From Ureibacillus manganicus DSM 26584 (GTDB lineage: Bacteria > Bacillota > Bacilli > Bacillales_A > Planococcaceae), in the NCBI RefSeq assembly GCF_000772945.1, contig NZ_JPVN01000007.1, positions 62,001-126,000 of the forward strand: a DNA stretch of 64,000 bases. The letters run 5' to 3'. Every line of letters starts with the position of its first letter. The first letter of the stretch is position 1. This document shows, piece after piece, positions 9,732-25,924 of the stretch. The notes under the pieces are model-generated. The model had not been told where the DNA came from, did no database searches, and saw only the letters and a list, made by a program, of their open reading frames with translations. Both the position numbers and the translations under genes were made by a program.

Positions 9732-11234
9732 TTGGAGGGGTTTATCTATAAAAATTATGATGGTCTCGGTTTGGCAAAGTTAATAAAAAACAAAGAATTG
9801 CAGTCAAAGGAAGTTCTCACAGAAGCAATTAAAACAATCGAAAAGCATAATCCAACGTTAAATGCGGTGATCAATAAATTTTATGAAAAAGCAGAAAGAC
9901 ACGCTGAAAATGTTGATTTGACAGGGACCTTTGCTGGTGTGCCGATGCTTTTAAAAGATATTGCACAAGAAGTTGCAGGGGAGAAAATAACTCAAGGGTC
10001 GAAAGCTTTTCAGAATTACCGTGCTCAAGCCGATTCGGAGTATATCAAGCAAGTACGGAAGACGGGGGCGGTTTTTGTCGGTCAAACAAATGTTCCAGAG
10101 TTTGCTTTAATGGGAATTACGGAGCCTCAAGTTTATGGGCCAACACGTAACCCATGGAATCTTGACCATACACCCGGGGGATCAAGCGGAGGCTCTGCTG
10201 CAGCAGTTGCCAGCGGTATGGTTCCAATTGCCGGGGCGAATGACGGTGGTGGTTCAATTCGAATTCCTGGTGCTTACTGCGGGCTGTTTGGGATGAAGCC
10301 TACTCGAGGTCGAACGCCTGTTGGACCAAAGTATGGTAGGAACTGGCAAGGTGCATCAGTTGATCATATTTTATCAAGGTCAGTTCGTGACAGCGCGGCT
10401 ATGCTGGATGAAATCAAAGTTTTTGAAAAAGCTGCTGCTTTCCACGCACCACCTTTTGAAGGTTCGTATCTTCAAATGATGAAAGTAACTCCAGTTAGCA
10501 AGTTGAGGGTTGCCTTTTCGGTCCGTTCGCCACTAGGTTCGGAGGTTCACCAGGATTGCAAGGAAGCAGTGTATAATGCAGCAAGGCTTCTAGAGTCAAT
10601 GGGTCATCATGTTGAGGAAGTTGATGCACCTGTAGATGGAAGAAAAATTGCTAAAAGCTATTTGACGATGTATTTCGGTGAAGTAGCTGCAGCCATTGCC
10701 TCCTTAGAGGAAATCTTAGGACGAAAGGCTGTAATGACCGATGTGGAACAGACTACTTGGATTTTAGGATTAGTCGGAAAGGCAACATCTGCGGAGGAAG
10801 TAGTTCTTAGTATTCGTGAATGGGATCACGCCGCTTATTCAATGGAAATTTTTCATGAGACTTACGACTTCTATATGACACCTACCACCGCGTTTCCTCC
10901 GGCCAATATTGGAGAACTTGAACCGAAGAAATCAGAAAAGCTGGCAATGCAGGTTGCTGGTAAACTTTCAATGGGCGGCATACTGAAAAAAGCTGGGATT
11001 GTCGAGCAGGTTGCGGAAAACAATTTGATGAGAACCCCATTCACACAACTGGCTAATTTAACTGGTCAGCCCGCAATGACGGTGCCGTTGCACTTGACCG
11101 CTGATGGTCTCCCGGTTGGTGTCCAGTTTATGGCAGCAAGAGGCAGGGAGGATTTGCTTTACTCATTAGCGGAGAAACTAGAACAAAGTGAACTATGGGT
11201 GCCCGCTGAGAAAAATCCGATGTTTTTGTTGTAA
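9732..11234 (+). CDS. Amidase-signature family hydrolase
   Basis: A 500-residue amidase with the Ser-cisSer-Lys triad of the amidase signature family: Lys75 (LLKDI), Ser151/Ser152 (PGGSSGGSA) and Ser175 ([10 protein letters not shown]). It hydrolyses an amide bond to acid and ammonia. Length and motifs fit stand-alone amidases rather than GatA, and no gatB or gatC lies nearby. The start is TTG at 9732 after a GAAGGGGAG ribosome site. It is a single-gene unit between two terminators of the same hairpin family. With the ureide and amino-acid deamination genes around it, a role in nitrogen scavenging is plausible, but the substrate is unknown. Confidence 0.88.
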
Positions 11235-11252
11235 AAGTGTAATTATATTAGA

Positions 11253-11290
11253 AGAACGAATTCTTGATTGAGAGATTCGTTCTTTTTTTT
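11253..11290 (+). terminator. Rho-independent terminator (AGAACGAATT family)
   Basis: AGAACGAATTCT (11253-11264) pairs with AGAGATTCGTTCT (11271-11283, with a bulge), followed by eight T residues. Confidence 0.88.
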
Positions 11291-11394
11291 ACAAAGTGTA
11301 TGTTTGCGACTCAATTTTGAAAGTGTGCCACCATTAATAATAACCAACCAGTAGGAAATACTGTCTTAAACGACGTAAAATGGAGGACAGAATT

Positions 11395-12198
11395 ATGCCT
11401 GAATTGCCAGAGATGGAAACTTATAAAACATTACTGGAGTCATTGATAGGTGGAAAAACAATTTCAGATGTTGAGATTGTGCGGGAAAAATCGATTAACG
11501 TTCCTGTTGACCGGTTTACAACTCAAGTTTCAAATCAAAAGATAACAACGGTTACTAGAAGAGCTAAATATTTAATTTTCCGACTAGAGGATGGGTCATG
11601 TTTACTATTACACCTCATGCTTGGCGGGTGGATGTTTTTTGGTAAAGAGGAAGATAAACCAGACAGGACGATTCAAGTAAAGCTATTCTTCGGTGAACAA
11701 CATTTATACTTCATTGGATTGCGATTAGGCTACCTACATCTTTTATCACCTGAAGATGTGAAGAAAGAGTTTGAGAACCTGGGTCCAGAAGTGCTTGATG
11801 CGGACTTTACTTTGGAGAGCTTCCACAAGCTAATGCAAAATAGAAGAGGTGCAATTAAAACAACACTAATCAACCAAGATGTGCTAGCTGGAATAGGGAA
11901 TGCTTATTCTGATGAAATTCTTTGGCATGCAGAGATTCGCCCTGATAAGAAAATCAATGAACTAAACGATCAACAACTAACGCGGGCTTATCATTCCATT
12001 CAGTTCATCCTAAAAAAAGGAATCCAAGAAGGTGGCTATATGGAAAACCCACTATATAAGGGAGATTCCAAAACCGGCGGCTATCAGTTCTATGTGTATG
12101 ATAAAGAAGGAGAAGAATGTTCTCGTTGCAATACTCCAATAATTAAAGACGAGATATCTTCACGAAAAACATTCTTTTGTCCTAATTGCCAGCAGTAA
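11395..12198 (+). CDS. Fpg/Nei-family DNA glycosylase/AP lyase
   Basis: A 267-residue base-excision repair enzyme. The start is set at ATG 11395 because the mature N-terminus must read (M)PELPE: Pro2 is the Schiff-base nucleophile and Glu3 the acid. The gene has GGAGGACA nine bases upstream. The middle helix-two-turn-helix (NQDVLAGIGNAYSDEILW) binds DNA, and the C-terminus carries a four-cysteine zinc finger (CSRC ... CPNC). It removes oxidised bases such as 8-oxoguanine or oxidised pyrimidines. MutM is usually 273-276 residues and next to polA; this one is shorter and isolated, so it may be a second, Nei-like paralogue. Confidence 0.88.
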   Translation: MPELPEMETYKTLLESLIGGKTISDVEIVREKSINVPVDRFTTQVSNQKITTVTRRAKYLIFRLEDGSCLLLHLMLGGWMFFGKEEDKPDRTIQVKLFFGEQHLYFIGLRLGYLHLLSPEDVKKEFENLGPEVLDADFTLESFHKLMQNRRGAIKTTLINQDVLAGIGNAYSDEILWHAEIRPDKKINELNDQQLTRAYHSIQFILKKGIQEGGYMENPLYKGDSKTGGYQFYVYDKEGEECSRCNTPIIKDEISSRKTFFCPNCQQ

Positions 12199-12252
12199 AG
12201 GATTATTTTTCGTTGTAGAAGCGAGGAAGTAATTAATAGATGGAGGGGTAAA

Positions 12253-13014
12253 GTGGATAAAAAATGGATTTCCAAAACATTGCTGGTGACGGTTGTATTA
12301 ATATTGTCGGCATGTAGTGCTGAAAAAAGTACATCACTTTTAGAAGTAACAAAAATGGATGATGAAAAAAAGCAAAATGTCTCAAAGCAGATTGCCAACG
12401 ATCAGGGATATGAACTCATCACTGAAACTTATTCTAAAGAGAATGTAAAATTAGAATATCCTCAAATCATTAATTTCAATGATGAAAGAAAACGACAGGA
12501 AATAAATGAACTGATAAAAAAAGAGGCACTTACTCCTTTTCAAGAGACAATTCAAAATTTAGAGCAAGACCAGAAATATAAGGCTGAAGGAAAATATGAA
12601 ATTAAATTAAAGAATAATCAAATTTTAAGCATTGCTTATAATAGTTACAACAATATTAGTCCATCTGCCCATCCTTATAATTTGTTTTTCACAACAAATA
12701 TAGATTTGACTACTGGCAAGCAATTGTTTTTATCTGATTTTGTATCGAAAATTGATAAGGATTTTATTAGGCTATTAAAAAATGCAAAATATGTGGGAGA
12801 TTTAGGAGATGATTTTGACCCGCAGATTAAAGAACTAGCATTTGGTCAGTACAGTAGTGATGAAGATTTAATATTAGCGCTAACTAATAATAAAGAGAAC
12901 GGTATTTATGTCTATGTAATAGAAAATGCTCTTGGTATTAGCATGCCGGTAGCTCATGTTGCGGGTGATCATGCTGAATTTGAAATTAATCTAAATTTAT
13001 TAAACAAAAAGTGA
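12253..13014 (+). CDS. Lipoprotein with DUF4163/DUF3298 (RsiV/PdaC-like) region
   Basis: A 253-residue lipoprotein. The N-terminal signal ends in the lipobox ILSAC (Cys21). The rest resembles the DUF4163-DUF3298 pair found in anti-sigma factor RsiV and deacetylase PdaC: an N-terminal part with EYPQIINFNDERKRQEINELI and a C-terminal part with LTTGKQLFLSDF. No catalytic deacetylase domain is present. The start is GTG after GGAGGGG. It is a single gene with its own terminator. It probably acts at the outer face of the membrane, but no partner is visible. The domain call is by pattern. Confidence 0.7.
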   Translation: MDKKWISKTLLVTVVLILSACSAEKSTSLLEVTKMDDEKKQNVSKQIANDQGYELITETYSKENVKLEYPQIINFNDERKRQEINELIKKEALTPFQETIQNLEQDQKYKAEGKYEIKLKNNQILSIAYNSYNNISPSAHPYNLFFTTNIDLTTGKQLFLSDFVSKIDKDFIRLLKNAKYVGDLGDDFDPQIKELAFGQYSSDEDLILALTNNKENGIYVYVIENALGISMPVAHVAGDHAEFEINLNLLNKK

Positions 13015-13052
13015 GAAACGATTACTGTACTGGGGACAAATAATATATTTCC

Positions 13053-13096
13053 GCTACAAAGTTTTAATTAGAAAAACTTTGTAGCTATTTTTATGA
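13053..13096 (+). terminator. Rho-independent terminator of the RsiV-like lipoprotein gene
   Basis: GCTACAAAGTTTT (13053-13065) and AAAACTTTGTAGC (13073-13085) form a perfect 13-bp stem, followed by TATTTTTAT. Confidence 0.88.
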
Positions 13097-13170
13097 TTAT
13101 ACAACGGATTAAACTAGTTTGAATTTGATATAATTTGAACTATCTAAATAAATTTAAGGAAGGTATCTGA

Positions 13171-14511
13171 ATGAGCCAACAAGTAGAAACTTCCATATTA
13201 AACCTCAAGGAATTGCTTGAACTTTATTTGTCTATTCCAGAATATCAAAGACCATATACATGGACACAAAAGAATGTTTTCCAGCTTCTTGATGATGTAA
13301 TAAGGTTCTCTGTGTACCCAGAATATCGAATTGGAACAATAATTTTACATAATAATAATGGGAAATTAGATATAGTTGACGGGCAACAACGTATTATTAC
13401 GAGCTTGCTTATTTCTAGATTTTTAGATTATAAGGATACAGAAAAACTAACTAAACTAGACATTCCTATGCATGAAAAAACCATTGAGAATATTAAAAGT
13501 AATTTTAAATTGATTGAAGAATATTTCGACAGTAATCCTAATGCGAAAGAGATTCTTAGAGACTATTTTTTAGAACACTGTACAGTTTTAGTTTTACAAT
13601 TGAGTAATTTAGACGAGGCTTTTCAATTATTTGATTCATCCAATAACCGTGGGAAGGCCCTGTTCCCTACTGACTTATTAAAAGCCTACCATTTGCGAGA
13701 AATAACAGGAAACGATGAGAAAAAAAGAGAGATGGTTGATTTATGGGAAAACATTAAACCTGAGCACGTATACATACTATTTTCTGATTACTTCTTTAGG
13801 ATTAAACAGTGGTCAAGGAATAAGCCTGTTAATGATGTTGGTTTCACAAATCAAGAGATTGATTTGTTCAAGGGAGTAAGTGAAGCAAACGATAACAAAC
13901 ATAATAATTGGTCAAAATCGCTATTAATGGCGAAGAATTTTGTAGATAACTATAATAGTCAAAATCAAACGATGATTGAATTTAAAGCGATGCAACCTTT
14001 GAATTATCCATTCCAGATAGACCAACCAATGATTAACGGCGAGTACTTTTTTAAATTTGTGGAGTATTATTATTCATTAGTAAATAAGTTAGGATTCTTT
14101 GAAGGAAATAAACAAATTGAAACTCACACATCTAAGATTAATATGCTGATTAACCAATTTGAAAATAATAAATATTTCAGATATGTAAATTCTTTGTACA
14201 AGACTGCTTTGTTATATGTAGTAGATAAATTTTCTCAAGATGAAGTAGATTCAATTGAAAAAATATGTTTTAAATATGCGTTCTATCCCCGTTTCTATTT
14301 CGAGCAAGTTCAGAAGAAAACTATCAATAAATATGTGACTGATAGTGATGCAGGTGTTCATAACTTTTTTAATTATGTAAATGAATCGTATTCCATTAGG
14401 GATATACTTCATTTTGAAGTAAAGACAAGTGAAGAAAAACTAAAAAACTCAAAGAAAATGAAAGAAAAATGGGAAAAAGTATATAGCTTATACTTTGAAG
14501 GTGGTAACTAA
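13171..14511 (+). CDS. DUF262 (GmrS-N/ParB-like) protein without HNH domain
   Basis: A 446-residue protein with a DUF262 N-terminal domain, the ParB-like nuclease/NTPase fold of GmrSD type IV restriction enzymes. Motifs: YQRPYTW at 25-31, DGQQR at 70-74 and FDSSNNRGKALFPTDLLKAY at 154-173. The C-terminal half is helical and lacks the DUF1524 HNH nuclease seen in most long DUF262 proteins. Its stop TAA shares a base with the next ATG (TAATG), so the two genes are translationally coupled. Start: ATG after AAGGAAGG. Low GC and the accessory neighbourhood suggest a defence module. It could be the nucleotide-sensing half of a two-protein restriction system. Confidence 0.85.
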   Translation: MSQQVETSILNLKELLELYLSIPEYQRPYTWTQKNVFQLLDDVIRFSVYPEYRIGTIILHNNNGKLDIVDGQQRIITSLLISRFLDYKDTEKLTKLDIPMHEKTIENIKSNFKLIEEYFDSNPNAKEILRDYFLEHCTVLVLQLSNLDEAFQLFDSSNNRGKALFPTDLLKAYHLREITGNDEKKREMVDLWENIKPEHVYILFSDYFFRIKQWSRNKPVNDVGFTNQEIDLFKGVSEANDNKHNNWSKSLLMAKNFVDNYNSQNQTMIEFKAMQPLNYPFQIDQPMINGEYFFKFVEYYYSLVNKLGFFEGNKQIETHTSKINMLINQFENNKYFRYVNSLYKTALLYVVDKFSQDEVDSIEKICFKYAFYPRFYFEQVQKKTINKYVTDSDAGVHNFFNYVNESYSIRDILHFEVKTSEEKLKNSKKMKEKWEKVYSLYFEGGN

Positions 14512-16361
14512 TGATAGAGAAAGAGTTTAGTATTAGGGATATATTTAATGGTTACTATAGCATTCCAATCTATCAAAGAGCGTATGCTTGGACTGATAAA
14601 GAAATAGAAACTCTCGTCGATGACATCTATGATTATTATTCTATTAGTAAAAATCAAAATTATTATATCGGTTCATTAGTCGTTCACAAAGGTGATCATG
14701 ATTTTGAAAATGTCATTGATGGACAACAACGATTAACAACATTATCATTGCTCATTTGTTATTTGAAAAATGAATCTAACTATAAAGATTTAGTGAAAGG
14801 CATTAACGTTAATCTTGATTTTGAGAGTAGAAAACGTTCAACTGATATTTTTAAGTATTTAAAAAAGAATTACGCGAAAGTAATCAATGAATCAAATGAA
14901 TTAGTTGATGGTTATCGAATTTTGAAAAAGAAATTGAATAACGAAAAATATAATGAAGGATATTTTCGATACTTAATTGATAATGTAATTCTTATCAAGA
15001 ATGAATTGCCAAAAAGTACTGATCTTAACCATTACTTTGAAATCATGAATAACCGTGGGGAGCAACTTGAAAAGCACGAAATTGTGAAAGCTTATTTAAT
15101 GGGAAAACTAGATGACTCTGACGATATTGGTCGTAAGGTTATTGCTGAAGTTTGGAATGCATGCCAACGATTAGATAAGTACGTGCAAATAGGGTTTAAA
15201 CCGAGTATTCGTCGGGAGATTTTCGGCGAGAAATGGGATGAGATTGTCCCAAATAATTATTCTGAGATGAAAAGAATATTTGAAGAAGATAACGAGATTG
15301 AAAGCTCGTTTTTAGGAACAATAACAATCGATGACATAATACAATCAAATTCAAAAACAGGTGAAAGTGAGAAGAAACGCAAAGAGGACGATGATACTGG
15401 AAGATATCATTCTATTATTAACTTTCCGAATTTCCTATTGCATGTATTGAAATTATTTAAGAATGACCGTTTTAACTGGAGAAACGAGTCAGATGGCATT
15501 TCTCTTGATGACAAGAAATTAATCAGTCATTTTAAAACTAACATCCACAATGTTAAAGATGTTGAAGACTTTGTTTACTTGCTGCTGAAGACACGGTATG
15601 TTTTTGATAATTACGTCATCAAAACGGATAGTTTAAATGATGCAACAGATGATGGCTCTAATTGGAGTTTGCATAAACCATATATGCTGCCTAGTAAAAG
15701 TGGTAATAAGTTATCGCCGCGTAATACTTTTTATAATGATGAGGATATGCAAGAGATAGTTGTCAAAATTCAGTCCATGTTCCAAGTAACAGATCCACGT
15801 CAAATCTATAAGAGCTACCTATATGGGATTCTAAGAATATTGAACTCATGGATTGATAGCAAAGATGATAAACATCTTGTAGATCAATTGATTAGTTTTG
15901 CAAAAGAACGTTTTAAAGCTATGACTGTTAAGGATACAGTTTTTGATGACGGCGTTAATACTCCAAACTATATCTTTAATTTCTTGGATTTCGTTCTTTG
16001 GTACCAACAAAAATTTGAAGGCAAAGAACATGGTGTAAAAGCGAATGAATTTGAATTTAAGTATAGAAATTCAGTAGAACACTTTTACCCACAAAATCCT
16101 AATCAAGCTGAAAATCATGCACGTCTTGAGGATAAATATCTCGATAACTTTGGCAACCTTTGTATAATGGCAAGAAGTCATAACTCTCTCCGTTCAAATC
16201 TAATGCCATCAGCAAAAATCAAAGAATTTAGCTCTACGAGTCAGAGTTTAAAATTTGAGCTAATGGAGAAACTCGCAAAACAGAAAGATGATTGGAATAA
16301 AAATGAAATCATACAGCATGGTAATGAAATGAAAAGATTGTTATCGGAATTTATTTCTTAA
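14511..16361 (+). CDS. DUF262-DUF1524 (GmrSD-like) nuclease
   Basis: A 616-residue protein with both halves of a GmrSD-type enzyme. The N-terminal DUF262 has YQRAYAW at 21-27, DGQQRLTTL at 70-78 and FEIMNNRGEQLEKHEIVKAYL at 176-196. The C-terminal DUF1524 HNH-type nuclease is recognisable from VEHFYPQNP and, after a gap, FGNLCIMARSHNSLRSN. GmrSD cuts modified phage DNA in other bacteria. This gene overlaps the preceding DUF262 gene by one base, which makes a fixed-ratio pair likely. A terminator follows at 16390. Whether it targets modified phage DNA is inference from the family. Confidence 0.88.
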   Translation: MIEKEFSIRDIFNGYYSIPIYQRAYAWTDKEIETLVDDIYDYYSISKNQNYYIGSLVVHKGDHDFENVIDGQQRLTTLSLLICYLKNESNYKDLVKGINVNLDFESRKRSTDIFKYLKKNYAKVINESNELVDGYRILKKKLNNEKYNEGYFRYLIDNVILIKNELPKSTDLNHYFEIMNNRGEQLEKHEIVKAYLMGKLDDSDDIGRKVIAEVWNACQRLDKYVQIGFKPSIRREIFGEKWDEIVPNNYSEMKRIFEEDNEIESSFLGTITIDDIIQSNSKTGESEKKRKEDDDTGRYHSIINFPNFLLHVLKLFKNDRFNWRNESDGISLDDKKLISHFKTNIHNVKDVEDFVYLLLKTRYVFDNYVIKTDSLNDATDDGSNWSLHKPYMLPSKSGNKLSPRNTFYNDEDMQEIVVKIQSMFQVTDPRQIYKSYLYGILRILNSWIDSKDDKHLVDQLISFAKERFKAMTVKDTVFDDGVNTPNYIFNFLDFVLWYQQKFEGKEHGVKANEFEFKYRNSVEHFYPQNPNQAENHARLEDKYLDNFGNLCIMARSHNSLRSNLMPSAKIKEFSSTSQSLKFELMEKLAKQKDDWNKNEIIQHGNEMKRLLSEFIS

Positions 16362-16389
16362 CAGTTTTGATGGAAATAAAGGATTGATG

Positions 16390-16439
16390 AGAATCCCTTG
16401 GAAATGAGCAAATAAGATCATTTTCGAGGGTTCTTTTTA
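16390..16439 (+). terminator. Rho-independent terminator after the DUF262 pair
   Basis: Bases 16390-16407 and 16418-16434 form an imperfect stem (AGAAxCCC...GAAATGA with TCATTTTC...GGGTTCT), followed by TTTTTAT. It separates the pair from the gene at 16587. Confidence 0.7.
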
Positions 16440-16586
16440 TGTAATGGAACCAAGTTGTAATGTGTATATTAGTTAACTAATGTAAGTAAATTAAAAACTC
16501 AAACAATTGAAAAAAGATATAAATTTGATACTAGAAGAATTATAATATACTAATCCGCGGAAATTTATTGAAAGTTGAGGGTTATC

Positions 16587-18278
16587 ATGGTTAAGAAGTT
16601 GATTGACCTTATGCGACCTACTTATTTTCTAGTTATCATCGCCTTATTTGTTTCTTTAATCATTCCTTTTGTATTCAACAAAGTGTTAAATTTAGAGTTT
16701 GCTAAGCCAGATACATTAGCATATGTTGGGTCAATTATAGGTGGAATTTTGACACTAATAGGGGTTTACTTAACAATAAGACATTCTGATAATTCTTATA
16801 AAAAGGCATTCGAAAAAGAATTAGAAAATGAATTTATTAATTCCTTTCCTCTGAAAATAGAAGCTATTAACAATGTGAAAATAGAAAGTGAAAGACTTCT
16901 TTCAGAATACAAATCTATTATTGGTAATGTTATTGAACAGACTGAAGTAGTAGGTATACAATACGAAACTCTTAAAGAGCTAAAAAATACATATAGCAAT
17001 AAACTATTACCAGTGGCAGGGAAGTTAGACGGTCATGTCTATGTTGAAGTAATACACTATCTAGAGGAAATCGATCATTTTAACAATTTTATACTTGATA
17101 AAGATCGGTTTATCCAACGTAATAGTCTTGAACTGTATATCGAAGAATTCAAAGTAAAGTTTGCACATATGTGCTTAAAGGTAAACCGTTCCATTGAGTT
17201 CTTTGGTGAATATCAAGAATCAATCGGAGATTACTTTACAAAGATCACAAAAGATAAGAATCTTTGGAAACCTAACCCAATGCTTAGTCAACAACAGTTT
17301 AAAACAAGCTTTTATGAGAAGTTCTTTCAAAGTGTCGTTAAACCTAATAAAGAAAAAGTTAAAATTGCAGTAGCACACAATCAAACTTCCCTTGAAAACC
17401 CCTATCATTTAGGATTGGAAAAATTTAAAGAAATAGCAGAAAAAATATCTGATGATACACTTCAAGTAGAAATTCATCCTGGAACGCTAGGAACGAACGA
17501 AGTTGAACTGTTAGCTAAGCTTCAAAAAGGAGCCATTGATGTAGTTGTCGTTTCACCGAACGTAATATCGTCAAAAACAGGGATTACTGAACTAGATCTG
17601 TTAACTCTACCTTATCTTTTTGATAGCTACGAGCATTGGGAAAGAGCTGTTGATGGTAATGTTGGACGGCACATTTCTACTTTAATTAAACGAAAATCAC
17701 ATAACTTACACGTCTTAGGTTACTTTTCAGCAGGGGTAAGGCATTTTTATGGGAAAAAGCCTATTGATGGATTAGAAGATTTAAATGGAATGACCGTACG
17801 TACACAAACAACAGGTGTAGTAGCTGAATATTTAACAAAGATCGGTGTTATTACTACCTCAATGGTTTGGGGTGAAATCTATCAAGGACTCCAACAAAAA
17901 GTGATTGACTTTGCAGAGAATGCCTATCCTTATTTTGTTGAACAGAACCATCATAAAACAGAAAATGGAAAGCATATAACGGAGACGGGCCACGATTACA
18001 CGACTCGTGTATTGATAATGAATGAGAAAAAATATGCTGGACTATCGAAAAAACAGAAAAAAGCTCTTATGGAAGCAGTAAATGCAGCAGTTGAAGAAGA
18101 ACGACAGGCCATTTATGAACAAGAAGCAGTATATAAAGAAATTGCTTTACAAGATGGAGCCCAGATATACAAAGTGGATCCAAAGCCATTTAAACAAGTA
18201 TTGGAACCAATACAGCAAACGTTTGCCGAAAATATTGAATCCGAAAATTTGTTAAAAATGATTAAGGAATTAAAGTAG
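16587..18278 (+). CDS. Membrane-anchored protein with helical linker and cytosolic DctP (TRAP-binding) domain
   Basis: A 563-residue chimera. Residues 13-31 and 46-64 are membrane segments; 65-255 form a charged, mostly helical linker; 257-560 are a complete DctP-type TRAP substrate-binding domain. That domain has AGVRHFYGKKPI (Arg385), the LNGMTVRTQ segment with Arg405 that normally binds a carboxylate, and GEIYQGLQQKVIDFAENAYPYF. Lysines and an arginine before TM1 and after TM2 predict both ends inside the cell, so the binding domain would be cytosolic; normal DctP is secreted. No TRAP permease (DctQ/DctM) lies nearby. I chose ATG 16587, with GAGG seven bases upstream, over TTG 16575. It may act as a ligand sensor. 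No frameshift or stop suggests an artefact. Confidence 0.75.
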   Translation: MVKKLIDLMRPTYFLVIIALFVSLIIPFVFNKVLNLEFAKPDTLAYVGSIIGGILTLIGVYLTIRHSDNSYKKAFEKELENEFINSFPLKIEAINNVKIESERLLSEYKSIIGNVIEQTEVVGIQYETLKELKNTYSNKLLPVAGKLDGHVYVEVIHYLEEIDHFNNFILDKDRFIQRNSLELYIEEFKVKFAHMCLKVNRSIEFFGEYQESIGDYFTKITKDKNLWKPNPMLSQQQFKTSFYEKFFQSVVKPNKEKVKIAVAHNQTSLENPYHLGLEKFKEIAEKISDDTLQVEIHPGTLGTNEVELLAKLQKGAIDVVVVSPNVISSKTGITELDLLTLPYLFDSYEHWERAVDGNVGRHISTLIKRKSHNLHVLGYFSAGVRHFYGKKPIDGLEDLNGMTVRTQTTGVVAEYLTKIGVITTSMVWGEIYQGLQQKVIDFAENAYPYFVEQNHHKTENGKHITETGHDYTTRVLIMNEKKYAGLSKKQKKALMEAVNAAVEEERQAIYEQEAVYKEIALQDGAQIYKVDPKPFKQVLEPIQQTFAENIESENLLKMIKELK

Positions 18279-18292
18279 GTTAACTAAAGTGA

Positions 18293-18413
18293 TGTGACCC
18301 CGAAAAGTTAGAGTTTTATTTTATGCAGCTAATTGGCAGGTATGAAGACAGTATTGTACTGGACTCATACCTGTCAATTTTTGTTTCATGCTTTTGTTAG
18401 GCATTAAAATTCA
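18293..18413 (-). mobile_element. Remnant of an IS3-family (IS150-type) element, right end
   Basis: GTGACCCCGAAAAGTTAGAG at 18293-18312 resembles an IS150-group terminal repeat. Just inside it, the minus strand from about 18397 to 18321 translates as KSMKQKLTGMSPVQYCLHT, then a few residues and a stop. That is the typical C-terminus of an IS3-family OrfB transposase. A stop codon lies shortly before this segment, and the rest of the transposase is gone. The element is dead. Confidence 0.7.
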
Positions 18414-18525
18414 CTCTTTTATCTTCACCTGTCTCCAACTTCAGCAAATCTTCATACCATATACTCAGGTACTTCGTTTTCTTTCAAGTATAAATACCTA
18501 CTATGAATATGGAGTGTGGTAGTTT

Positions 18526-19824
18526 ATGAATTTAAGAAAGATAGGATATAATATTATTTCAAAAATAAAATCAAGTCCTGTCAAAGAGTTTATAAGAGAA
18601 TTTTATTTTAGTGATGAAGAAAAAGACACACTTGCTTCAAAGCGTTTAGAGTTAATACTTAGTGTCGCAAAAAACAATACTAAATTTTATTCTGAATATA
18701 ATACATTTGAAGAATTTCCAATTATATCAAAAGCCACTTTAAGAGAAAGATATGAAGATTTTTTATCTAACAAACTTGATAAAAAGGAAGCTGTGATCAC
18801 CACCACTTCAGGATCGACTGGTCAACCTATGACTTTTTACTTGTCTAAAAATAAAAAATATAGGCAAAATGCAGAAGTGATTTTTTATAACAATTGGGCA
18901 AACATTGATGTTGGTGATTATCATGCCTTTGTTAGAGTTACGAATCTAAAGTCAAAACTTAAACTTTTTTTGCAAAATGAAGTATTAATGAATCCTAAGC
19001 ACCTTTCTGACGAGTGGTTAGAAGAACAAGTGAATATATTAAATAAAAAACGTGTGACTGGAATTATTGGTTATCCTTCTTCAATTTCAGCTATTGCACA
19101 AAAAGCTAATGAAATTAATTTTAATAAACAAAATTTCCATTTAAAAGGGATTGTGTGCACGGGAGAATCCCTGAAAGAAAAAGATGCGGAAATAATGGAA
19201 AAAGTATTTGGAGTAAAGCCAATTAGTCGATATTCTACAGAAGAATTTGGCGTATTAGCTACATCTTGTCCTCGATGCGGTAGGTTTCACGTCAATGATA
19301 CAGGGTATATAGTTGAAATATTAAGATTAGAGGATAATATGCCTGTTGAAGTTGGCGAATCTGGCAGAGTGGTTGTTACAGATTTGTTTTCAGATAATCT
19401 GCCTTTGATTCGTTTTGACACGGGTGATATTGCAATTTACGGTGGAAAAAGTAATTGTTCTTTTTATCCTACAGGAATAGTCTTGGAATCAATTGTAGGT
19501 CGTCAAATTGATACAATTTATGATATACATGGGAAAGCTGTATCAGCTTTCGCTATAAATGGTTCATTGAGGAATTTTCATACTATAAAACAATTTCAAT
19601 TTATTCAGGACTCTTTAAGTGAAAACACCCTTTTATTAGTAGTCAATAACGAATTTGATAATAGAGATAAACACATAATTACGAATAGATTTATAGAGAT
19701 ATTAGGGGAAGAACCGAAAATTAAAATAGTTGATGAAATAACAGCGTTAAAATCAGGGAAAAGACCGTATATAATAAGTAATTATAAAAAGAAAAGTACA
19801 CATCAGTCTCAAATTTTGCAGTAA
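18526..19824 (+). CDS. CapK/PaaK-like adenylate-forming enzyme
   Basis: A 432-residue member of the phenylacetate-CoA ligase/CapK group of ANL enzymes, which activate a carboxylate with ATP. The phosphate loop TTSGSTGQPMTFY is near residues 89-101. Other marks are RYSTEEFGVLA (adenine/substrate region), the pair CPRCGRFH and the LIRFDTGDIA motif. A C-terminal lid domain follows, with KSGKRPYII near the end. CapK-type proteins usually sit in capsule or polysaccharide clusters, but here the gene stands alone between two IS-like sequences. The ribosome site is weak (GGAGTG). The neighbours and lower GC suggest an acquired gene. The substrate is unknown. Confidence 0.8.
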   Translation: MNLRKIGYNIISKIKSSPVKEFIREFYFSDEEKDTLASKRLELILSVAKNNTKFYSEYNTFEEFPIISKATLRERYEDFLSNKLDKKEAVITTTSGSTGQPMTFYLSKNKKYRQNAEVIFYNNWANIDVGDYHAFVRVTNLKSKLKLFLQNEVLMNPKHLSDEWLEEQVNILNKKRVTGIIGYPSSISAIAQKANEINFNKQNFHLKGIVCTGESLKEKDAEIMEKVFGVKPISRYSTEEFGVLATSCPRCGRFHVNDTGYIVEILRLEDNMPVEVGESGRVVVTDLFSDNLPLIRFDTGDIAIYGGKSNCSFYPTGIVLESIVGRQIDTIYDIHGKAVSAFAINGSLRNFHTIKQFQFIQDSLSENTLLLVVNNEFDNRDKHIITNRFIEILGEEPKIKIVDEITALKSGKRPYIISNYKKKSTHQSQILQ

Positions 19825-19987
19825 CTATGTGATTAGCCGGAATAAAATTACGTTAAACAAGCAGTTAATACGATTGTTAAATTTTTTATAGTCAAACCCT
19901 ATCTTCCGGAGATTAACCTACTAAACTAAATCCTATTTTACTAGTAGGAACGTATTTCCATTCTCCACTAATTTTCTTCATAAAAAA

Positions 19988-20027
19988 CACTCCAAAAGTT
20001 AGTTTATTTACTCTAACTTTTGGAGTG
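19988..20027. repeat. Perfect 15-bp inverted repeat resembling IS ends, possible terminator
   Basis: CACTCCAAAAGTTAG (19988-20002) and CTAACTTTTGGAGTG (20013-20027) form a perfect hairpin with a 10-base loop. An A-run before it gives a U-tract on the minus strand, so it may end the operon starting at 23189. The arms also resemble IS3-family terminal repeats, in inverted orientation to the IS remnant at 18293. Confidence 0.7.
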
Positions 20028-20054
20028 CAGTACATTTTCTTTTGATTGAAATAA

Positions 20055-21677
20055 TTAACTGTCCTTTTGTTCCAATTGCTCTATATGATACGTAATTTTC
20101 AAAAATGGAATTGAAAAGATCCACATTTGATGCTCTGCATAAAGGTTACCTTCGTGCGTTTCTTTCACATGAAAAGTTTCTTCAATTGGTAATGATAGTA
20201 GGTGTTTATTCCATACTAAATAGATGCCCGCATCAGAATTGGAATCAGACTTTTTGCTTGATAGTTGAAGCTCATTGCCAATTTGATTTAACTCTAATAT
20301 CCCAAGCATGGATGACCATGGAAGGGGGAGAGCGATGTTCATAAAGTTTCGATCATTTGTTTTGTGCCATGAATATAAAGCGATAAAGGTAACATCATTA
20401 TTTATTTTTCTTACCCAAGCTCTGGGGCTTCTTCGTCCATCCAATTCTTCATTGATTTTAAGGATGTCACCACTCATCTCCACTTTTTTATTAGATAAAG
20501 GGAGGTTGATTTGTTTAACTTGTGAGCTAATTAAATGATACACGGCAGCAAAAGGTTTAAACCAATTCTTCCATTGAACAGTAGCATAAAGCTGGTAATC
20601 GATTGTATTTTCATAAAAATCACGAATCGTTGGTGAAAGTGTATTTATATTGATATGTGGCTCATAAACATGCATTTCATCTACTAACCCTTTAAATGTA
20701 GCTGTTGCTTCTTGATCTACTAGTTTAGGAAGAATATTTTCACCAATAACCATTGTTCCTCGTACTTTACTAATAGGGAATGTCCAATTTTCCTTTTTTT
20801 TTAGAGGAATGAATATCGACCATCCAATAACGCCTAGTAAAGCAAATAATATGCAGTTTAAGAAACCGTGAAATTGAAGCATAAAGTCAATACTAACCGA
20901 AAAGTTGCTTGTTAACCGCCCAAAGGCATATAAGAATGAAAACAAAATGGTCACACCTAATGATCCAAATGATAATAGGATGAATCCTTTTTGTAATCTA
21001 CGTGCAAAGTGGGCCCGCCAAGTATAGTAAATAATCATGTAGATTCCTATCATATAAAACACAACTGACACCCATTCAATCCACACTGAAAAAGTAATTC
21101 CGATGGCTAAAAGCATAAGTGAGATTAATAAAATACCTGCAGCGAAGGTATAAAATCGTGGCTTATAAAGCCTACCAAGGAAACCTACAAAAACAGGAAG
21201 TAAAAATGCTGCGTAATGAAAATGTATCGCAGTAAGCCAAGTAATCATTGGAGAAAATCCGGTATCGATATGGGTAATGTGTGCAAAGTACCACATTCCA
21301 CCGATAGATAAATATACCAGTGCCAGATCAATAGAAAATTCCTCAAATCGAATAAAGCCCCTCTTTAGAAATCTACTAACCCCATAGACAGCTACGATAC
21401 AAGTAAATAGCAAATAAATCCCTGCAAGTAAACCATCCCATAATGATTGATGAGTTATATGTAATAGAATTACAGAAATATAAGCCGGGAAGGCAAAGTA
21501 AGTGTAATAACGGCTAAACCAATCATCCTTCTTAGTAATCATTTGTAAAATAAGTGGAACGTAGACAGTCTGCGCCACTGTTAGCATTAAAAAATAAGGA
21601 GAATCTTGTCCAAAAACAACAGCAACTAAAAACAAAATAATCGAAAGAAGTGTCCAGTTATTCCAGTACATGTGCAC
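20055..21677 (-). CDS. yndJ: YndJ-family membrane protein
   Basis: A 540-residue protein. About the first 290 residues form nine or ten membrane helices, and the last 250 are soluble and rich in beta strands. This matches the Bacillus YndJ family, whose function is unknown. It is the last gene of a three-gene operon with a DUF4166 protein and an SRPBCC-DoxX protein. The start is GTG at 21677, six bases after AAAGGAG, and overlaps the previous gene by 20 bases, so translation is probably coupled. The hairpin at 19988-20027 probably ends the transcript. Confidence 0.75.
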   Translation of the reverse strand: MHMYWNNWTLLSIILFLVAVVFGQDSPYFLMLTVAQTVYVPLILQMITKKDDWFSRYYTYFAFPAYISVILLHITHQSLWDGLLAGIYLLFTCIVAVYGVSRFLKRGFIRFEEFSIDLALVYLSIGGMWYFAHITHIDTGFSPMITWLTAIHFHYAAFLLPVFVGFLGRLYKPRFYTFAAGILLISLMLLAIGITFSVWIEWVSVVFYMIGIYMIIYYTWRAHFARRLQKGFILLSFGSLGVTILFSFLYAFGRLTSNFSVSIDFMLQFHGFLNCILFALLGVIGWSIFIPLKKKENWTFPISKVRGTMVIGENILPKLVDQEATATFKGLVDEMHVYEPHININTLSPTIRDFYENTIDYQLYATVQWKNWFKPFAAVYHLISSQVKQINLPLSNKKVEMSGDILKINEELDGRRSPRAWVRKINNDVTFIALYSWHKTNDRNFMNIALPLPWSSMLGILELNQIGNELQLSSKKSDSNSDAGIYLVWNKHLLSLPIEETFHVKETHEGNLYAEHQMWIFSIPFLKITYHIEQLEQKDS

Positions 21678-22272
21678 TGAACTCTCCTTTATACGAGAAA
21701 ATATGACCGATTAATGGATTTCGCACATCCACTGCTATTTCAAAAGAGCCTTTTTCTTCGTTATATTTTTCTTTGACAGTCGCTAATCCTTGAAAAAGTT
21801 TAGGTAAAGGAATCTCAATTCTGCCTAGGACTAATCGTTGTTTTCTAGATTCAATTTTTAAACCTCCATCGGAAGAAACAGTAAACACTAAGTCTGAATA
21901 GACTACACTTGGCTCACCTAAGTAATCTTTAATTATGTTTCGTTTAGAGTCCAAACTCATAAGTGCATTGAAATGTCGTTTCTTCTTTCCAAAATAAAAG
22001 GTTCTTTCCCAATGGATTTGTTCCTCTCCATTTGGACCAACTATGGGAGTATTTATAATTGTAAAAGGGATATCTATTCCCTGTTCAGGGAATAGGAGTT
22101 TGTTTTTTGTACCTAACGAAAATAATGGATAGAGAATTTTTGGTCCCCCATTAATCGTTTTCATAATACCTGTTGCATGAAAAGGTGCGTTATTTGGAAA
22201 TCGATATCTCTTTTGTAACATAGGGTGCAACCTATCAAATTGTTTATCTAATACTTTTATAAATATTGACAT
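21658..22272 (-). CDS. DUF4166 domain protein
   Basis: A 204-residue soluble protein matching the DUF4166 pattern (FHATGIMKTINGGPKILYPLF near residues 30-50; VDVRNPLIGHIFSYKGEF at the C-terminus). DUF4166 genes usually accompany yndJ-like or saccharopine-dehydrogenase-like genes in Bacillales, as here. It lies between the SRPBCC-DoxX gene (8 bp upstream) and yndJ (20-bp overlap). The start is set at ATG 22272; a TTG directly before it is possible. Function unknown. Confidence 0.75.
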   Translation of the reverse strand: MSIFIKVLDKQFDRLHPMLQKRYRFPNNAPFHATGIMKTINGGPKILYPLFSLGTKNKLLFPEQGIDIPFTIINTPIVGPNGEEQIHWERTFYFGKKKRHFNALMSLDSKRNIIKDYLGEPSVVYSDLVFTVSSDGGLKIESRKQRLVLGRIEIPLPKLFQGLATVKEKYNEEKGSFEIAVDVRNPLIGHIFSYKGEFSAHVLE

Positions 22273-22280
22273 CAATCACT

Positions 22281-23189
22281 TCATCTCTTTCTCTTACAAG
22301 TAGTTGCTGAAGGTAGATCTTTACTTACAAAATAGCCTATTAATGAAATTAACAAAAGACTAAAATTAAATGTTAATGGATTAAAAGGATGAATCAATGT
22401 ACTAGGTTGCGCTAGTATCGCTGTAATAGTGAGTAGTGGGAATATTAGTACCTGCATACCAAATAGTATTCTTTTATTCTTATACAGTAACCAGAGTAAT
22501 CCAAAAATTACTTCGCAGATTCCAGTAATAATAACAATCCAAGAGGCAACTTCATGAGAAACCGAAACTAAGCTTTTCACCATTGAGATTTCATCTGGGT
22601 GCATGTAAAAAAGCTTTGGAATAAGTCCATGATAAAGCCATATAAAGCTAAAAAGGATTGTAATGAACCAGTTTGTGAAAAAGCGAAAATATTGAGAAGA
22701 AGGAGTTTCTTCTTTTTCCATCCATCTTTTTAACACATCGAAACTAAGCGCAGTTCCCCAACCAATCATTGGACGAAACATTAGCAGATCTAATAAGCGA
22801 CCAAATTTACCAAAATTCACATCATAATCATATTGCGTTAAAAATGTGATAGAGTTTTGGCTGTTGTTCGGAACATACTTCCAATACCCTTTTCCTTCCA
22901 TAATCGGTGAGATGGTATTTTCCGTTCCAAAATGTAATGACGATGTTCGTTCACCATTATTACCGTCATGACTACCGGCAGTAATTCCCCATCCCTCTAC
23001 TTCTAGTCCAAATCCAATCTTTCGTTTATATGAAAAATGTTGAGGTTCATTTTCTTTCTTTGGTAAATATGTAATTGAAGAAAATCGAAGATCCCATTGT
23101 TCATGCATTTCCGGTGTTTGAGTTGCTTTCCATAATTTGTCCATCTGGGTTTGAATCTCAATTTCAACATAAACAGGCTTATTTTTCAT
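22281..23189 (-). CDS. SRPBCC-like domain fused to a DoxX-like membrane domain
   Basis: A 302-residue protein, first gene of the yndJ operon. Residues 1-150 resemble an SRPBCC/START-like fold (VYVEIEIQTQMDKLWKATQTPE, then EQWDLRFSSI, with a long hydrophobic-pocket pattern). Residues about 165-295 hold four or five membrane helices of the DoxX-like type (ITGICEVIFGLLWLLYKNKR). I chose the ATG at 23189 because AAAGGTGGG lies nine bases upstream; upstream starts at 23240 lack a ribosome site. SRPBCC domains bind hydrophobic ligands, so a lipid or hydrophobic-ligand role at the membrane is possible. Confidence 0.7.
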   Translation of the reverse strand: MKNKPVYVEIEIQTQMDKLWKATQTPEMHEQWDLRFSSITYLPKKENEPQHFSYKRKIGFGLEVEGWGITAGSHDGNNGERTSSLHFGTENTISPIMEGKGYWKYVPNNSQNSITFLTQYDYDVNFGKFGRLLDLLMFRPMIGWGTALSFDVLKRWMEKEETPSSQYFRFFTNWFITILFSFIWLYHGLIPKLFYMHPDEISMVKSLVSVSHEVASWIVIITGICEVIFGLLWLLYKNKRILFGMQVLIFPLLTITAILAQPSTLIHPFNPLTFNFSLLLISLIGYFVSKDLPSATTCKRKR

Positions 23190-23535
23190 TATGCTCATCC
23201 CACCTTTATTCCTATTTGTTGAAAAAGTTACCAAATACATATGTTTTTAGTATAACATGGGTGTTTAAAAATTTTGGGGTTGTTTATGAACCGAATTATT
23301 AATTACTTCTAGAAGGATTCTTTTCCAATAATTGGATACTACTAAAAAGGTTAAGGAATGCCATTTAGGTCGGTTATCTGTTAAAATAAACAGTTGTGAT
23401 TTTCAAAAAATAGTTTTTACAAACTTTTAATTACTGAAGTGTAGTTATAATTAATAGTTATTTATTAAGCATGATATAAGTTGAAAAATAAAATAGAATC
23501 ATTCAGATTTTGTTGAAGATTTTGAATTTGGGATT
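23190..23535. other. Divergent promoter region, no gene seen
   Basis: This AT-rich stretch lies between the divergent yndJ operon and dus. It must hold both promoters. No ORF with a ribosome site, no clear hairpin and no recognised operator was found. Confidence 0.5.
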
Positions 23536-24537
23536 ATGATGAGAGGATTTGAATTTAACATGATAGATAATTTTTGGCGTGAATTACCAAGACCATTTTT
23601 TGTGCTTGCACCTATGGAAGATGTGACTGATACCGTTTTTCGCCATGTCGTAAGTAAAGCTGGTAGGCCAGATGTGTTTTTTACTGAGTTTACAAATACA
23701 GAGAGTTATTGTCACCCAGAAGGTCAAAAAAGCGTACGTGGACGTTTAATTTTTACAGAAGATGAACAACCAATGGTAGCGCATATATGGGGAGATAAGC
23801 CGGAATATTTCCGCCAAATGAGTATCGGAATGGCGGAGATGGGATTCAAAGGAATCGATATTAATATGGGCTGTCCTGTGCCGAATGTGGCATCTAGAGG
23901 AAAGGGAAGTGGCCTAATCCTTCGTCCAGAAGTCGCTGCAGATATCATACAAGCAGCAAAAGCAGGAGGATTACCTGTTAGTGTAAAAACACGACTTGGT
24001 TATTCGAATATAGAGGAGTGGCATGACTGGCTAACACATATATTAAAACAAGATATTGCTAATCTTTCGATTCACCTTCGTACAAGAAAAGAAATGAGCC
24101 AAGTAGATGCCCATTGGGAGCTCATTCCAGAGATTAAAAAACTTCGTGATCAAGTAGCACCAAATACATTACTAACTATCAATGGAGACATCCCTAATCG
24201 ACAAATAGGCTTGGAACTCGCTGAAAAATATGGTATTGATGGGGTTATGATCGGGCGCGGTATTTTTAAAAATCCATTTGCCTTTGAAAAGGAACCAAAA
24301 GAACATAGTCCTAAGGAGTACCTTGAACTACTTAGATATCAACTGGATCTGCAAGATAAGTTTTTAGAAGAATTACCACGTTCCATCACAGCACTCCATC
24401 GCTTCTTCAAAATATATGTAAAAGGATTTAGAGGCGCGAGTGAATTGAGAAATCAATTGATGAGCACAAAGTCAACTGATGAAGTGCGAGCAATGCTAGA
24501 TCACTTTGAAAAGAAATTTGAAGTGACGGGAGAGTAG
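23536..24537 (+). CDS. dus: tRNA-dihydrouridine synthase
   Basis: A 333-residue flavoenzyme that reduces uridine to dihydrouridine in tRNA using FMN and NADPH. The TIM-barrel motifs are in order: [12 protein letters not shown], the catalytic-cysteine segment [25 protein letters not shown], the phosphate-binding region LTINGDI and [14 protein letters not shown], then a helical C-terminal domain. The motif [12 protein letters not shown] replaces the more common HGRTR, as in one Dus subfamily. Starts at 23536 or 23560 are possible; GAGAGG lies 13 bases before the second. Single gene with its own terminator. Bacillales often carry two or more Dus; which one this is cannot be told. Confidence 0.88.
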
Positions 24538-24560
24538 AAAAAAATTATCACATAAATAAA

Positions 24561-24603
24561 AGGGCTTCAAAAGTTTCACAATACTTTTGGGAGCCTTTTT
24601 TAA
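24561..24603 (+). terminator. Rho-independent terminator after dus
   Basis: AAGGGCTTCAAAAGT (24561-24575) pairs with ACTTTTGGGAGCCTT (24584-24598), with one bulge, followed by a T-run. Confidence 0.8.
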
Positions 24604-24897
24604 ATACAATTTTTAGCAAGTGCAGAGAACAAAATTTCATTTTACCTCTTGGTAAAATGTGTTGTCAACAAGAAATTTGTGAAATTATCAGAAAAATGTT
24701 ATAATAACTTTATCAATTGTTTTTCAATCGTATTCTGGTTTTGATGTTTTTCTGCAAGTAGATGATGGATACGTTTTTTAATATTTTTCCCAAAGTAAAA
24801 ATTCAAACAGTTGTGTGCGCTTTAAAAGAAGTTAGTTGAATTATCGAATTGCAATTTTTATGTAACAAAGTTTTCATTCTCAAGGAGGACTAGAATA
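24604..24897. other. AT-rich intergenic region, nothing recognised
   Basis: No ORF, RNA gene or clear hairpin was found. It presumably carries the promoter for the gene at 24898. Confidence 0.4.
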
Positions 24898-25752
24898 ATG
24901 AATCTAATCAATAAAAAAGTTACACACAAGAGTTTTGGCACGGGTAGTATAGTTAAGCATAATGAAACAAGTATTGAAATACATTTCGCTTCGGAAAACA
25001 AAAAGTTTGTGTTTCCAGATGTATTTGAAAAGCATCTTAAACTACATGATCCAAGTGTTGCAAATACACTTGAGAAAATTATACAGGATAAGGAAATGGA
25101 ACGAAAAGAAGAAGAACGAAGAAAGGAAGAAGAAAAGAAAATACTAAGACAAAATCATGAACTTCGCTTGGAACATGAAAAGCTGATGAAAAACCATAAA
25201 CTCCATCCAGAATCACAAATGGTTTTTTGGTGTGACGAGGAAGAACAGATTAGCTCACTTTCTGAGTGGAAGGTCTTTTCAGGGGAAATCAAAAGTGGTA
25301 ATAACAAAGGGAAACCAAATAAACCGATTCGCTTACACCAAAATAGTGCAGTCTTGTTAACTGCAGTAGATTCTAGCGTGCCTGAAAAAGACAGACGTAT
25401 CCTGGGTGTCTATATGGTGCATGAGAATTTTATCGGTAAGCTTTGTGAAGATGGATTTATTCCAGCTCATTCAAAATACAAACTCCAACTTACAGAACAA
25501 GAATCTGATCAGTTGCTATTTTGGAACTATTATGTAAATGAAAAATCACCGGATAAGATGACATGGAATACTGGGAAATACCGTTATTTCGATAATGTAT
25601 GGATGGCACAAATTTTGCGTGATATAGCTTCGTTGAAAACTGACCCAATGGAACAAGAGCTTGCGCAACAGTTCTTTAAACATTTTTGTAAAATGAATAA
25701 GATATTAGCACAAGAGTTACCTGAACCTAATGGTGCATTAAAGCGAATGTAG
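24898..25752 (+). CDS. Uncharacterised protein with coiled-coil centre
   Basis: A 284-residue soluble protein I cannot name. Residues 1-50 form a small beta-rich domain (KVTHKSFGTGSIVKHNET ... IEIHFASENKKFVFPDVF), a pattern seen at the start of many Bacillales proteins of unknown role. Residues 60-100 are a highly charged coiled coil (Glu/Lys/Arg). The C-terminal 170 residues contain conserved-looking aromatic blocks (FWNYYVNEK, WNTGKYRYFDNVWMAQILRD). No signal peptide or membrane segment is present. The ATG is well placed after CAAGGAGGA. The gene is a single transcription unit with its own terminator. Confidence 0.75.
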   Translation: MNLINKKVTHKSFGTGSIVKHNETSIEIHFASENKKFVFPDVFEKHLKLHDPSVANTLEKIIQDKEMERKEEERRKEEEKKILRQNHELRLEHEKLMKNHKLHPESQMVFWCDEEEQISSLSEWKVFSGEIKSGNNKGKPNKPIRLHQNSAVLLTAVDSSVPEKDRRILGVYMVHENFIGKLCEDGFIPAHSKYKLQLTEQESDQLLFWNYYVNEKSPDKMTWNTGKYRYFDNVWMAQILRDIASLKTDPMEQELAQQFFKHFCKMNKILAQELPEPNGALKRM

Positions 25753-25789
25753 ACGTTAGATTTGGAACGATGAAAACCATAAAATTTGC

Positions 25790-25834
25790 AACCCTTGATA
25801 ATGCCTTTTATACGGCGTTATCGAGGGTTTTCTT
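25790..25834 (+). terminator. Rho-independent terminator
   Basis: AACCCTTGATAATGCC (25790-25805) pairs with GGCGTTATCGAGGGTT (25814-25829), with G-U pairs, followed by TTCTTT. Confidence 0.82.
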
Positions 25835-25924
25835 TCGCCAATATTATGTAACGATTGTAAAATATTTGAAATAGGCTTATCGTAATCAGTAGTAGAATCT
25901 GCAATACGGAAGGATGGGTTCAAG

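Follow-up and report, generated by a model that had tools for sequence, protein, structure and literature searches.

A survey describes the substrate-binding proteins of TRAP transporters as extracytosolic and records SBP-type domains also as sensor domains of cytosolic proteins (PMC9602780). A precedent for the latter logic is NasS, the Paracoccus nitrate/nitrite sensor, which is presented as a homologue of nitrate-transport binding proteins that has no signal peptide (PMC5424462). The protein of the fusion gene reported here begins with a two-helix membrane hairpin, continues as a helical bundle and ends in a complete DctP domain. It resembles NasS in having a binding-protein domain without an export signal (the sensor role being that of NasS, and the location of the fusion's domain being a prediction), but NasS is described as an ABC-type nitrate binding relative that is co-transcribed with its partner NasT (PMC5424462), whereas the fusion is DctP-type and membrane-tethered and no co-transcribed partner regulator was found for it. 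Elongated TAXI binding proteins and TAXI-GltS fusions likewise carry an extra N-terminal part or membrane tether on a TRAP-type binding domain; however, TAXI proteins are not of the DctP family, and the elongated one is portrayed as having a lipoprotein signal, facing outside and having a proposed permease partner (PMC12344293). Cap15 and 2TM-beta share with the fusion N-terminal transmembrane helices and a C-terminal ligand domain, but in the account of PMC12657230 that domain is a beta-barrel for cyclic dinucleotides and 2TM-beta is encoded with a nucleotide cyclase, and we found no sequence match between them and the fusion. Our literature search for DctP fusions or cytosolic use of DctP returned no description of such an architecture. 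Set against these systems, the new elements here are the DctP family and the membrane tether.

The gene lies in the window (the whole stretch of 64,000 nucleotides that was analysed), and an earlier note on this DNA had proposed an in-frame fusion of a two-helix anchor to a full DctP domain. This was confirmed by the open frame and by a full-length fusion elsewhere: the search for the same architecture succeeded once, at an unrelated locus in Bacillus suaedaesalsae, whose 566-residue protein is collinear, 73% identical and has the same junction. A scan of 84,980 species, each represented by one genome, searched for six exact peptide patterns of the anchor half, a design that detects close relatives only; it gave 69 candidate stretches and this one relative. 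As the same fusion is kept in a second bacterium, we regard it as a real, maintained gene. Its features are as follows.

16385–16439, + strand: terminator-like hairpin with a T run, after the DUF262 pair and before the fusion gene (−22.6 kcal/mol, z −3.38, none of 200 shuffles as stable)
16541–16581, + strand: TATAAT box (16541–16546), 5′ leader and GAGGG ribosome-binding site (16577–16581), aligned with the sequence upstream of the B. suaedaesalsae fusion; box and site assigned by eye
16587–18278, + strand: fusion gene, 563 amino acids, ATG start; open frame, orthologous fusion of B. suaedaesalsae at L019:8001–9701
16620–16676, + strand: transmembrane helix 1, residues 12–30 (hydropathy 2.66; AlphaFold helix 11–33)
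16707–16784, + strand: transmembrane helix 2, residues 41–66, with the conserved GSIIGGxLTxxGV motif (hydropathy 1.98; AlphaFold helix 41–66; G48, T56 and G59 invariant)
16791–17249, + strand: helical bundle, residues 69–221 (AlphaFold block of pLDDT 74–86 over 81–220, with dips of 57 and 63 at 111–130)
17292–17360, + strand: variable junction, residues 236–258 (43% identity between the two fusions)
17361–18275, + strand: DctP binding domain, residues 259–563 (profile and structure-relative matches)
17379–17384, + strand: N265 and Q266 in an AHNQTS motif, matching STM3169 N35/Q36 in type; putative correspondence
17739–17741, + strand: R385, first conserved ligand arginine (alignments; PMC7660916)
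17799–17801, + strand: R405, carboxylate-clamping arginine (alignments; PMC7660916)
17919–17921, + strand: N445, conserved ligand asparagine (alignments; PMC7660916)

The ATG at 16587 is a better start than the TTG at 16575, 12 bases upstream, because GAGGG stands 5 bases before the ATG and the TTG lies upstream of this ribosome-binding site. From the TATAAT box to the ATG, the leader is largely conserved between both fusions. A promoter scan gave no site at this box, and the counts from the promoter/terminator consensus scan were not above those of shuffles. An Rfam search over 10000–26000 at gathering scores returned no match. The sole cysteine of the fusion protein is C196.

The C-terminal part of the protein matched Pfam PF03480 (DctP) over residues 267–548 (E 9e-56, 189.7 bits against a cut-off of 23.4, profile positions 5–285 of 286) and NCBIfam TRAP_S1 over residues 259–533 (E 6.7e-48). 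Among solved proteins, the nearest were DctP-type binding proteins, with 4x04, 4ng7, 4x8r, 4xfe and 4mhf first. Most of 4x04, 4ng7, 4xfe and 4mhf presumably bind uronates. 4X8R is named as glucuronate-bound in PMC11668362, and the hexuronate-binding site of STM3169 is described as two arginines, an asparagine, Asn35, Gln36, Glu74 and Asp237 (PMC7660916). When the two fusions were aligned with five free-standing relatives, 58 columns were invariant; Q266, E305, R385, R405 and N445 were kept in all seven rows and N265 in six, so the carboxylate-binding arginine (R405) and companion residues (R385, N445) of the PF03480 family are in place. The asparagine, glutamine and glutamate of the fusion may correspond to those of the STM3169 site. 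A full DctP domain with its substrate-binding arginines, as the earlier note had it, is therefore present, with nearly the whole profile covered and the arginines being R385 and R405. Residues 401–450, which include R405 and N445, are 92% identical between the two fusions. On the other hand, 14 positions that are invariant in the five free-standing relatives differ in both fusions, including W380 (five residues before R385), W416 and P423, so the ligand or the affinity may have changed.

With the best six candidates scored per genome, a DctP match reached E 1e-40 in eight of 378 class genomes, namely the fusion and seven free-standing proteins, which have open frames of 351–398 residues and, by eye, a start resembling what we take to be the lipobox motif. 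The nearest free-standing DctPs found, G052, G407, G426 and G416, are 54, 53, 52 and 51% identical to the fusion domain, respectively, and a Treponema plasmid DctP is 42% identical. In a 15-row tree (midpoint root only), the fusions paired at 100/100 and joined G052, G426, G407 and G416 at 99/98; the Treponema protein branched next, at 97/99. At the four loci read (G052, G426, G416 and G340), DctQ-like and DctM-like genes stand directly behind each DctP. Those of G052, G426 and G416 are LacI / OMPdecase-HUMPS / SIS / DctPQM operons that also carry PfkB and KDPG aldolase or RpiA. By Pfam, the assignments LacI, OMPdecase/HUMPS, SIS, DctP, DctQ, DctM, PfkB and KDPG aldolase were confirmed at G052, and OMPdecase/HUMPS and RpiA at G426, the other names resting on resemblance of translations. 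These sugar-acid gene sets around the nearest DctPs suggest a sugar-acid ligand. The TRAP operon itself (L064:5635–12561, L065 and L068; LacI, OMPdecase/HUMPS, SIS isomerase, DctPQM, PfkB and KDPG aldolase, with RpiA in L065) is a possible sugar-acid pathway coupling a hexulose-phosphate step with a KDPG step, and a literature search on it found nothing.

The sugar-acid TRAP binding proteins of the DctP type (those of L064, L065, L067 and L068, and 4x04, 4ng7, 4x8r, 4xfe and 4mhf) have the same domain as the fusion from first strand to last helix, with the arginines and asparagine kept. In contrast to the fusion, whose N-terminus is an unrelated 2TM-helical part without an export signal and which has no permease gene close by, the relatives in L064, L065, L067 and L068 have lipobox-like starts and a TRAP permease beside them. 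Because the nearest DctPs are lipoprotein-like and the fusion pair groups with the four nearest, the simplest history seems to be that the lipoprotein signal of an exported sugar-acid DctP was lost and a 2TM-helical protein became fused to the domain as its new anchor. Homologues made of only a signal peptide and DctP, which the earlier note had named as evidence against its reading, do exist, but those found reach no more than 54% identity, whereas the 73% relative is the same fusion. The net charge of the fused DctP domains is −6 and −3, compared with −8 to −46 in 13 relatives that start with an export-like or hydrophobic segment. The shift fits relocation but carries little weight, as the two ranges almost touch and salt adaptation of the hosts would be a confounder. 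The Treponema saccharophilum DctP (L020:5890–6915) is of the lipoprotein type, and the incomplete gene table of its circular plasmid record lists no TRAP permease in the preceding 5.9 kb, in the 1.5 kb that remain to the record end or in the first 9 kb.

The N-terminal half contains the two most hydrophobic segments of the protein, beginning at residues 12 and 44 (19-residue means of 2.66 and 1.98; the next is 1.06), and no export signal or lipobox was seen by eye; there are two transmembrane segments instead. An AlphaFold model of this half from two sequences gave both transmembrane helices, with a pLDDT of only 48–57 for the hairpin, and the full chain, also from two sequences, did not fold (mean pLDDT 42). 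The 190-residue helical part of the earlier note is present, but it is more than a passive linker, because residues 122–235 are the best conserved part of the N-terminal half (83% identity and dN/dS 0.067 between the two fusions). Foldseek found no match to the predicted N-terminal module at E 0.001 or better. Its VIA-align rows are mixed helical bundles that include extracytoplasmic sensor domains and LytS complexed with XylFII, which we take to be a xylose binding protein docking outside the cell. A PDB sequence search with the anchor gave no convincing relative (the 29 chains at E up to 1 were mostly helical proteins, the best at 0.0039), and searches of Pfam, PADLOC, PHROGs and NCBIfam (the last with the whole protein) found no family at a telling score. 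Nor did the anchor match plasmids and phages at E 0.01, and two scans of viral contigs with the same two peptide patterns, each with 131 candidate stretches, yielded no relative.

Positive residues had been said to predict an N-in/C-in topology, and our Lys/Arg counts agree in 22 of 22 aligned proteins (both fusions and 20 free-standing relatives, with the seven matches left out of that alignment excluded), although the test, which counts up to 20 residues before helix 1, the loop and 20 residues after helix 2, sets two flanks against one shorter loop and so leans towards this outcome. The fusions have 7 and 8 positive residues inside and 2 in the loop. Helix 2 is arguably a true membrane helix, since it bears the best conserved motif of the group. 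On a simplified insertion scale, helix 2 of either fusion (+0.30 and +0.64) and helix 1 of the B. suaedaesalsae protein (+0.61) come out as borderline. The charge pattern predicts the DctP domain in the cytoplasm; with charge counts and hydropathy as the basis of the topology, we consider this location quite probable.

Residues 1–66 would thus form a transmembrane hairpin with both ends cytoplasmic, residues 69–221 a cytoplasmic helical bundle, and residues 259–563 a DctP clamshell closing on a carboxylate, most likely a sugar acid. Closure would alter the packing on the helical bundle, or pull at it, and either a partner or the membrane would receive the signal by way of bundle and hairpin. 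The signalling role is reached by elimination, as neither an output domain nor a co-transcribed partner was identified at the two fusion loci. Taken together, we give roughly even chances to the fusion being a cytosolic receptor, tethered to the membrane, whose carboxylate ligand is most likely a sugar acid of the uronate or aldonate type; we infer topology, ligand class, ligand binding and signalling alike, and the ligand-sensor role put forward in the earlier note is the best reading of the protein. We hold out little hope for a more specific version, in which the clamshell is an intracellular ligand gate whose closure on a sugar acid switches the glycine-rich 2TM hairpin between assembled and free, as a one-gene membrane switch triggered by nutrients or stress. 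If the receptor reading is true, DctP on the inner membrane face in two species would mean that internal sensors have evolved from this large family too, just as NasS did from a binding protein of nitrate transport, and the fusion would offer a concrete single-gene test system for clamshell signalling through a helical bundle and membrane hairpin.

The main rival of the receptor reading is that helix 2 does not span the membrane and DctP lies outside the cell, so that the protein is a signal-anchored binding protein serving a TRAP permease whose genes are at another locus. We judge this unlikely. The genome does encode TRAP permeases, as a DctM search gave eight matches over cut-off, six of them above 240 bits, on eight contigs; none is on the 181-kb contig (C22) of the window, so for DctM the earlier statement that no TRAP permease genes are near holds. 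Lacking both an export signal or lipobox and a DctM on its contig, the fusion departs from a TRAP binding subunit, and the neighbours at both fusion loci look unrelated. Two of the other host DctPs (L003 and L004) also start, by eye, with a hydrophobic anchor-like segment and no lipobox, which would suit an outside domain, as would the borderline insertion energy of helix 2 and the extracytoplasmic sensors and LytS–XylFII among the look-alikes of the bundle. However, the other four DctPs found in this genome are only 20–25% identical to the fusion domain, with no cognate system evident, and both the uniform N-in/C-in charge pattern and the position of the most conserved anchor motif in helix 2 argue against an outside location.

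Apart from the fusions, the anchor matched proteins at E 1.8e-7 to 0.006, and 20 of the 27 distinct matches are free-standing proteins that share mainly the hairpin. These 20 (alignment A3) are scattered Bacillota proteins of 123–272 amino acids with a 2TM hairpin of the GSIIGGxLTLxGV type and a variable helical tail, and have no convincing Pfam family. The seven left out have stops in the match (L012, L013 and L024), are shorter than 100 amino acids (L016 and L018), match only outside the hairpin (the 446-residue protein of L015/L028) or are acyltransferase-like (L044, 659 amino acids). Like the fusion, the free-standing proteins have the hairpin followed by a helical tail, but they end after the helical part without a ligand domain, and similarity outside the hairpin is weak. 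Among the matches listed for 78 proteins near ten of them were at least two C5 DNA methylases, at least two integrases and some prophage or ordinary genes, so that the context appears mixed and gives no clear function. The fusion draws attention to this 2TM-helical group, which has no Pfam family, as candidate signalling components.

Such relatives bear on another alternative to the receptor reading, that the fusion is a ligand-gated 2TM membrane effector with DctP as its receptor, in which binding or loss of the ligand assembles the hairpin and damages the membrane in the manner of Cap15/2TM-beta. The order of parts is the same, with the hairpin first and the ligand domain last, the GSIIGG motif of helix 2 is glycine-rich, the 2TM-beta logic is described in PMC12657230, and the methylases, integrases and prophage genes near the anchor relatives are in keeping with it. 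The resemblance of the N-terminal part to defence effectors, which the earlier note had seen, was nevertheless not supported: the fusion's own anchor had no PADLOC or Pfam match above cut-off and matched no curated 2TM/SLATT effector model, and across the 22 anchors one weak match to a 2TM effector model (E 0.0034) and a single SLATT_fungal match (E 0.0061) were seen, both in other proteins. As no defence partner was recognised at either fusion locus, and the DUF262 pair is followed by a terminator and missing at the second locus, we find an effector of this kind improbable.

The DUF262 (GmrSD_N) pair occupies 13171–16361, the first gene with DUF7834 and the second with GmrSD_C (Pfam), and the best PADLOC models are HEC-06 and Orf5, respectively. 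That the fusion gene follows this pair behind a terminator was borne out by folding of the hairpin at 16385–16439, which is not in the output of a simple consensus terminator scan. In B. suaedaesalsae, the fusion gene lies between subtilase-like and ABC-transporter genes (named by resemblance of their translations), none of 12 other window proteins matches at the locus, and the 17–19 kb read around the fusion has no DUF262 match. We therefore rejected the fusion as part of a DUF262 or GmrSD-type defence unit. The proposed sensing of a phage-derived ligand or role in defence fares no better, as the DUF262 pair ends in a terminator, the second locus is without DUF262 and the DctP relatives point to a sugar acid. 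Since both B. suaedaesalsae neighbours are on the other strand, the fusion is clearly a single unit there. The same is probably true in the window, where the next same-strand gene starts 248 bases after the fusion end, behind an IS3-like stretch, although the terminator scan found none between the two.

Between the two fusions, dN/dS was 0.132 overall with a dS of 1.16, and 0.148 for residues 1–250 and 0.111 for residues 259–563 with a dS of 1.1–1.2 (Nei–Gojobori), ratios that are rough because dS of this size is near saturation. Both halves are under purifying selection, and conserved cores on either side of a drifting junction are as expected of two working domains. This speaks against the fusion being a recombination by-product kept for a useful anchor, with a functionless DctP part: its rarity, with two loci, and patchiness (one of 25 genomes in the genus and one of three in the family of B. 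suaedaesalsae) would fit, but the DctP half is under no less constraint than the anchor half and is 92% identical around R405 and N445, and we think this account very unlikely. An assembly chimera or frameshift artefact joining two genes is ruled out for all practical purposes by the independent genome with the same junction.

Among the genomes sampled around the window's own, the fusion was found in that genome alone (1 of 25 in the genus, 1 of 250 in the family, 1 of 261 in the order, 1 of 398 in the class and 1 of 348 in the phylum), in overlapping samples in which, for many genomes, the best 6 to 10 first-look candidates were scored and weaker relatives may be missed. In the order of B. 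suaedaesalsae, it was found in that species only (1 of 299 genomes). The fusion is thus rare, with two known loci and a patchy distribution. The gene at 20055 is present in 10 of the 25 genus genomes. In the five of these that were read, the block 20055–23240 is kept with no other tested window gene within the 18 kb taken, so no empty site is definable in the genus. Directly behind the fusion gene, the non-coding stretch 18294–18399 is 74–83% identical to Bacillota plasmid DNA, with an IS3-family transposase in two of the five records listed, and looks like an insertion-sequence remnant.
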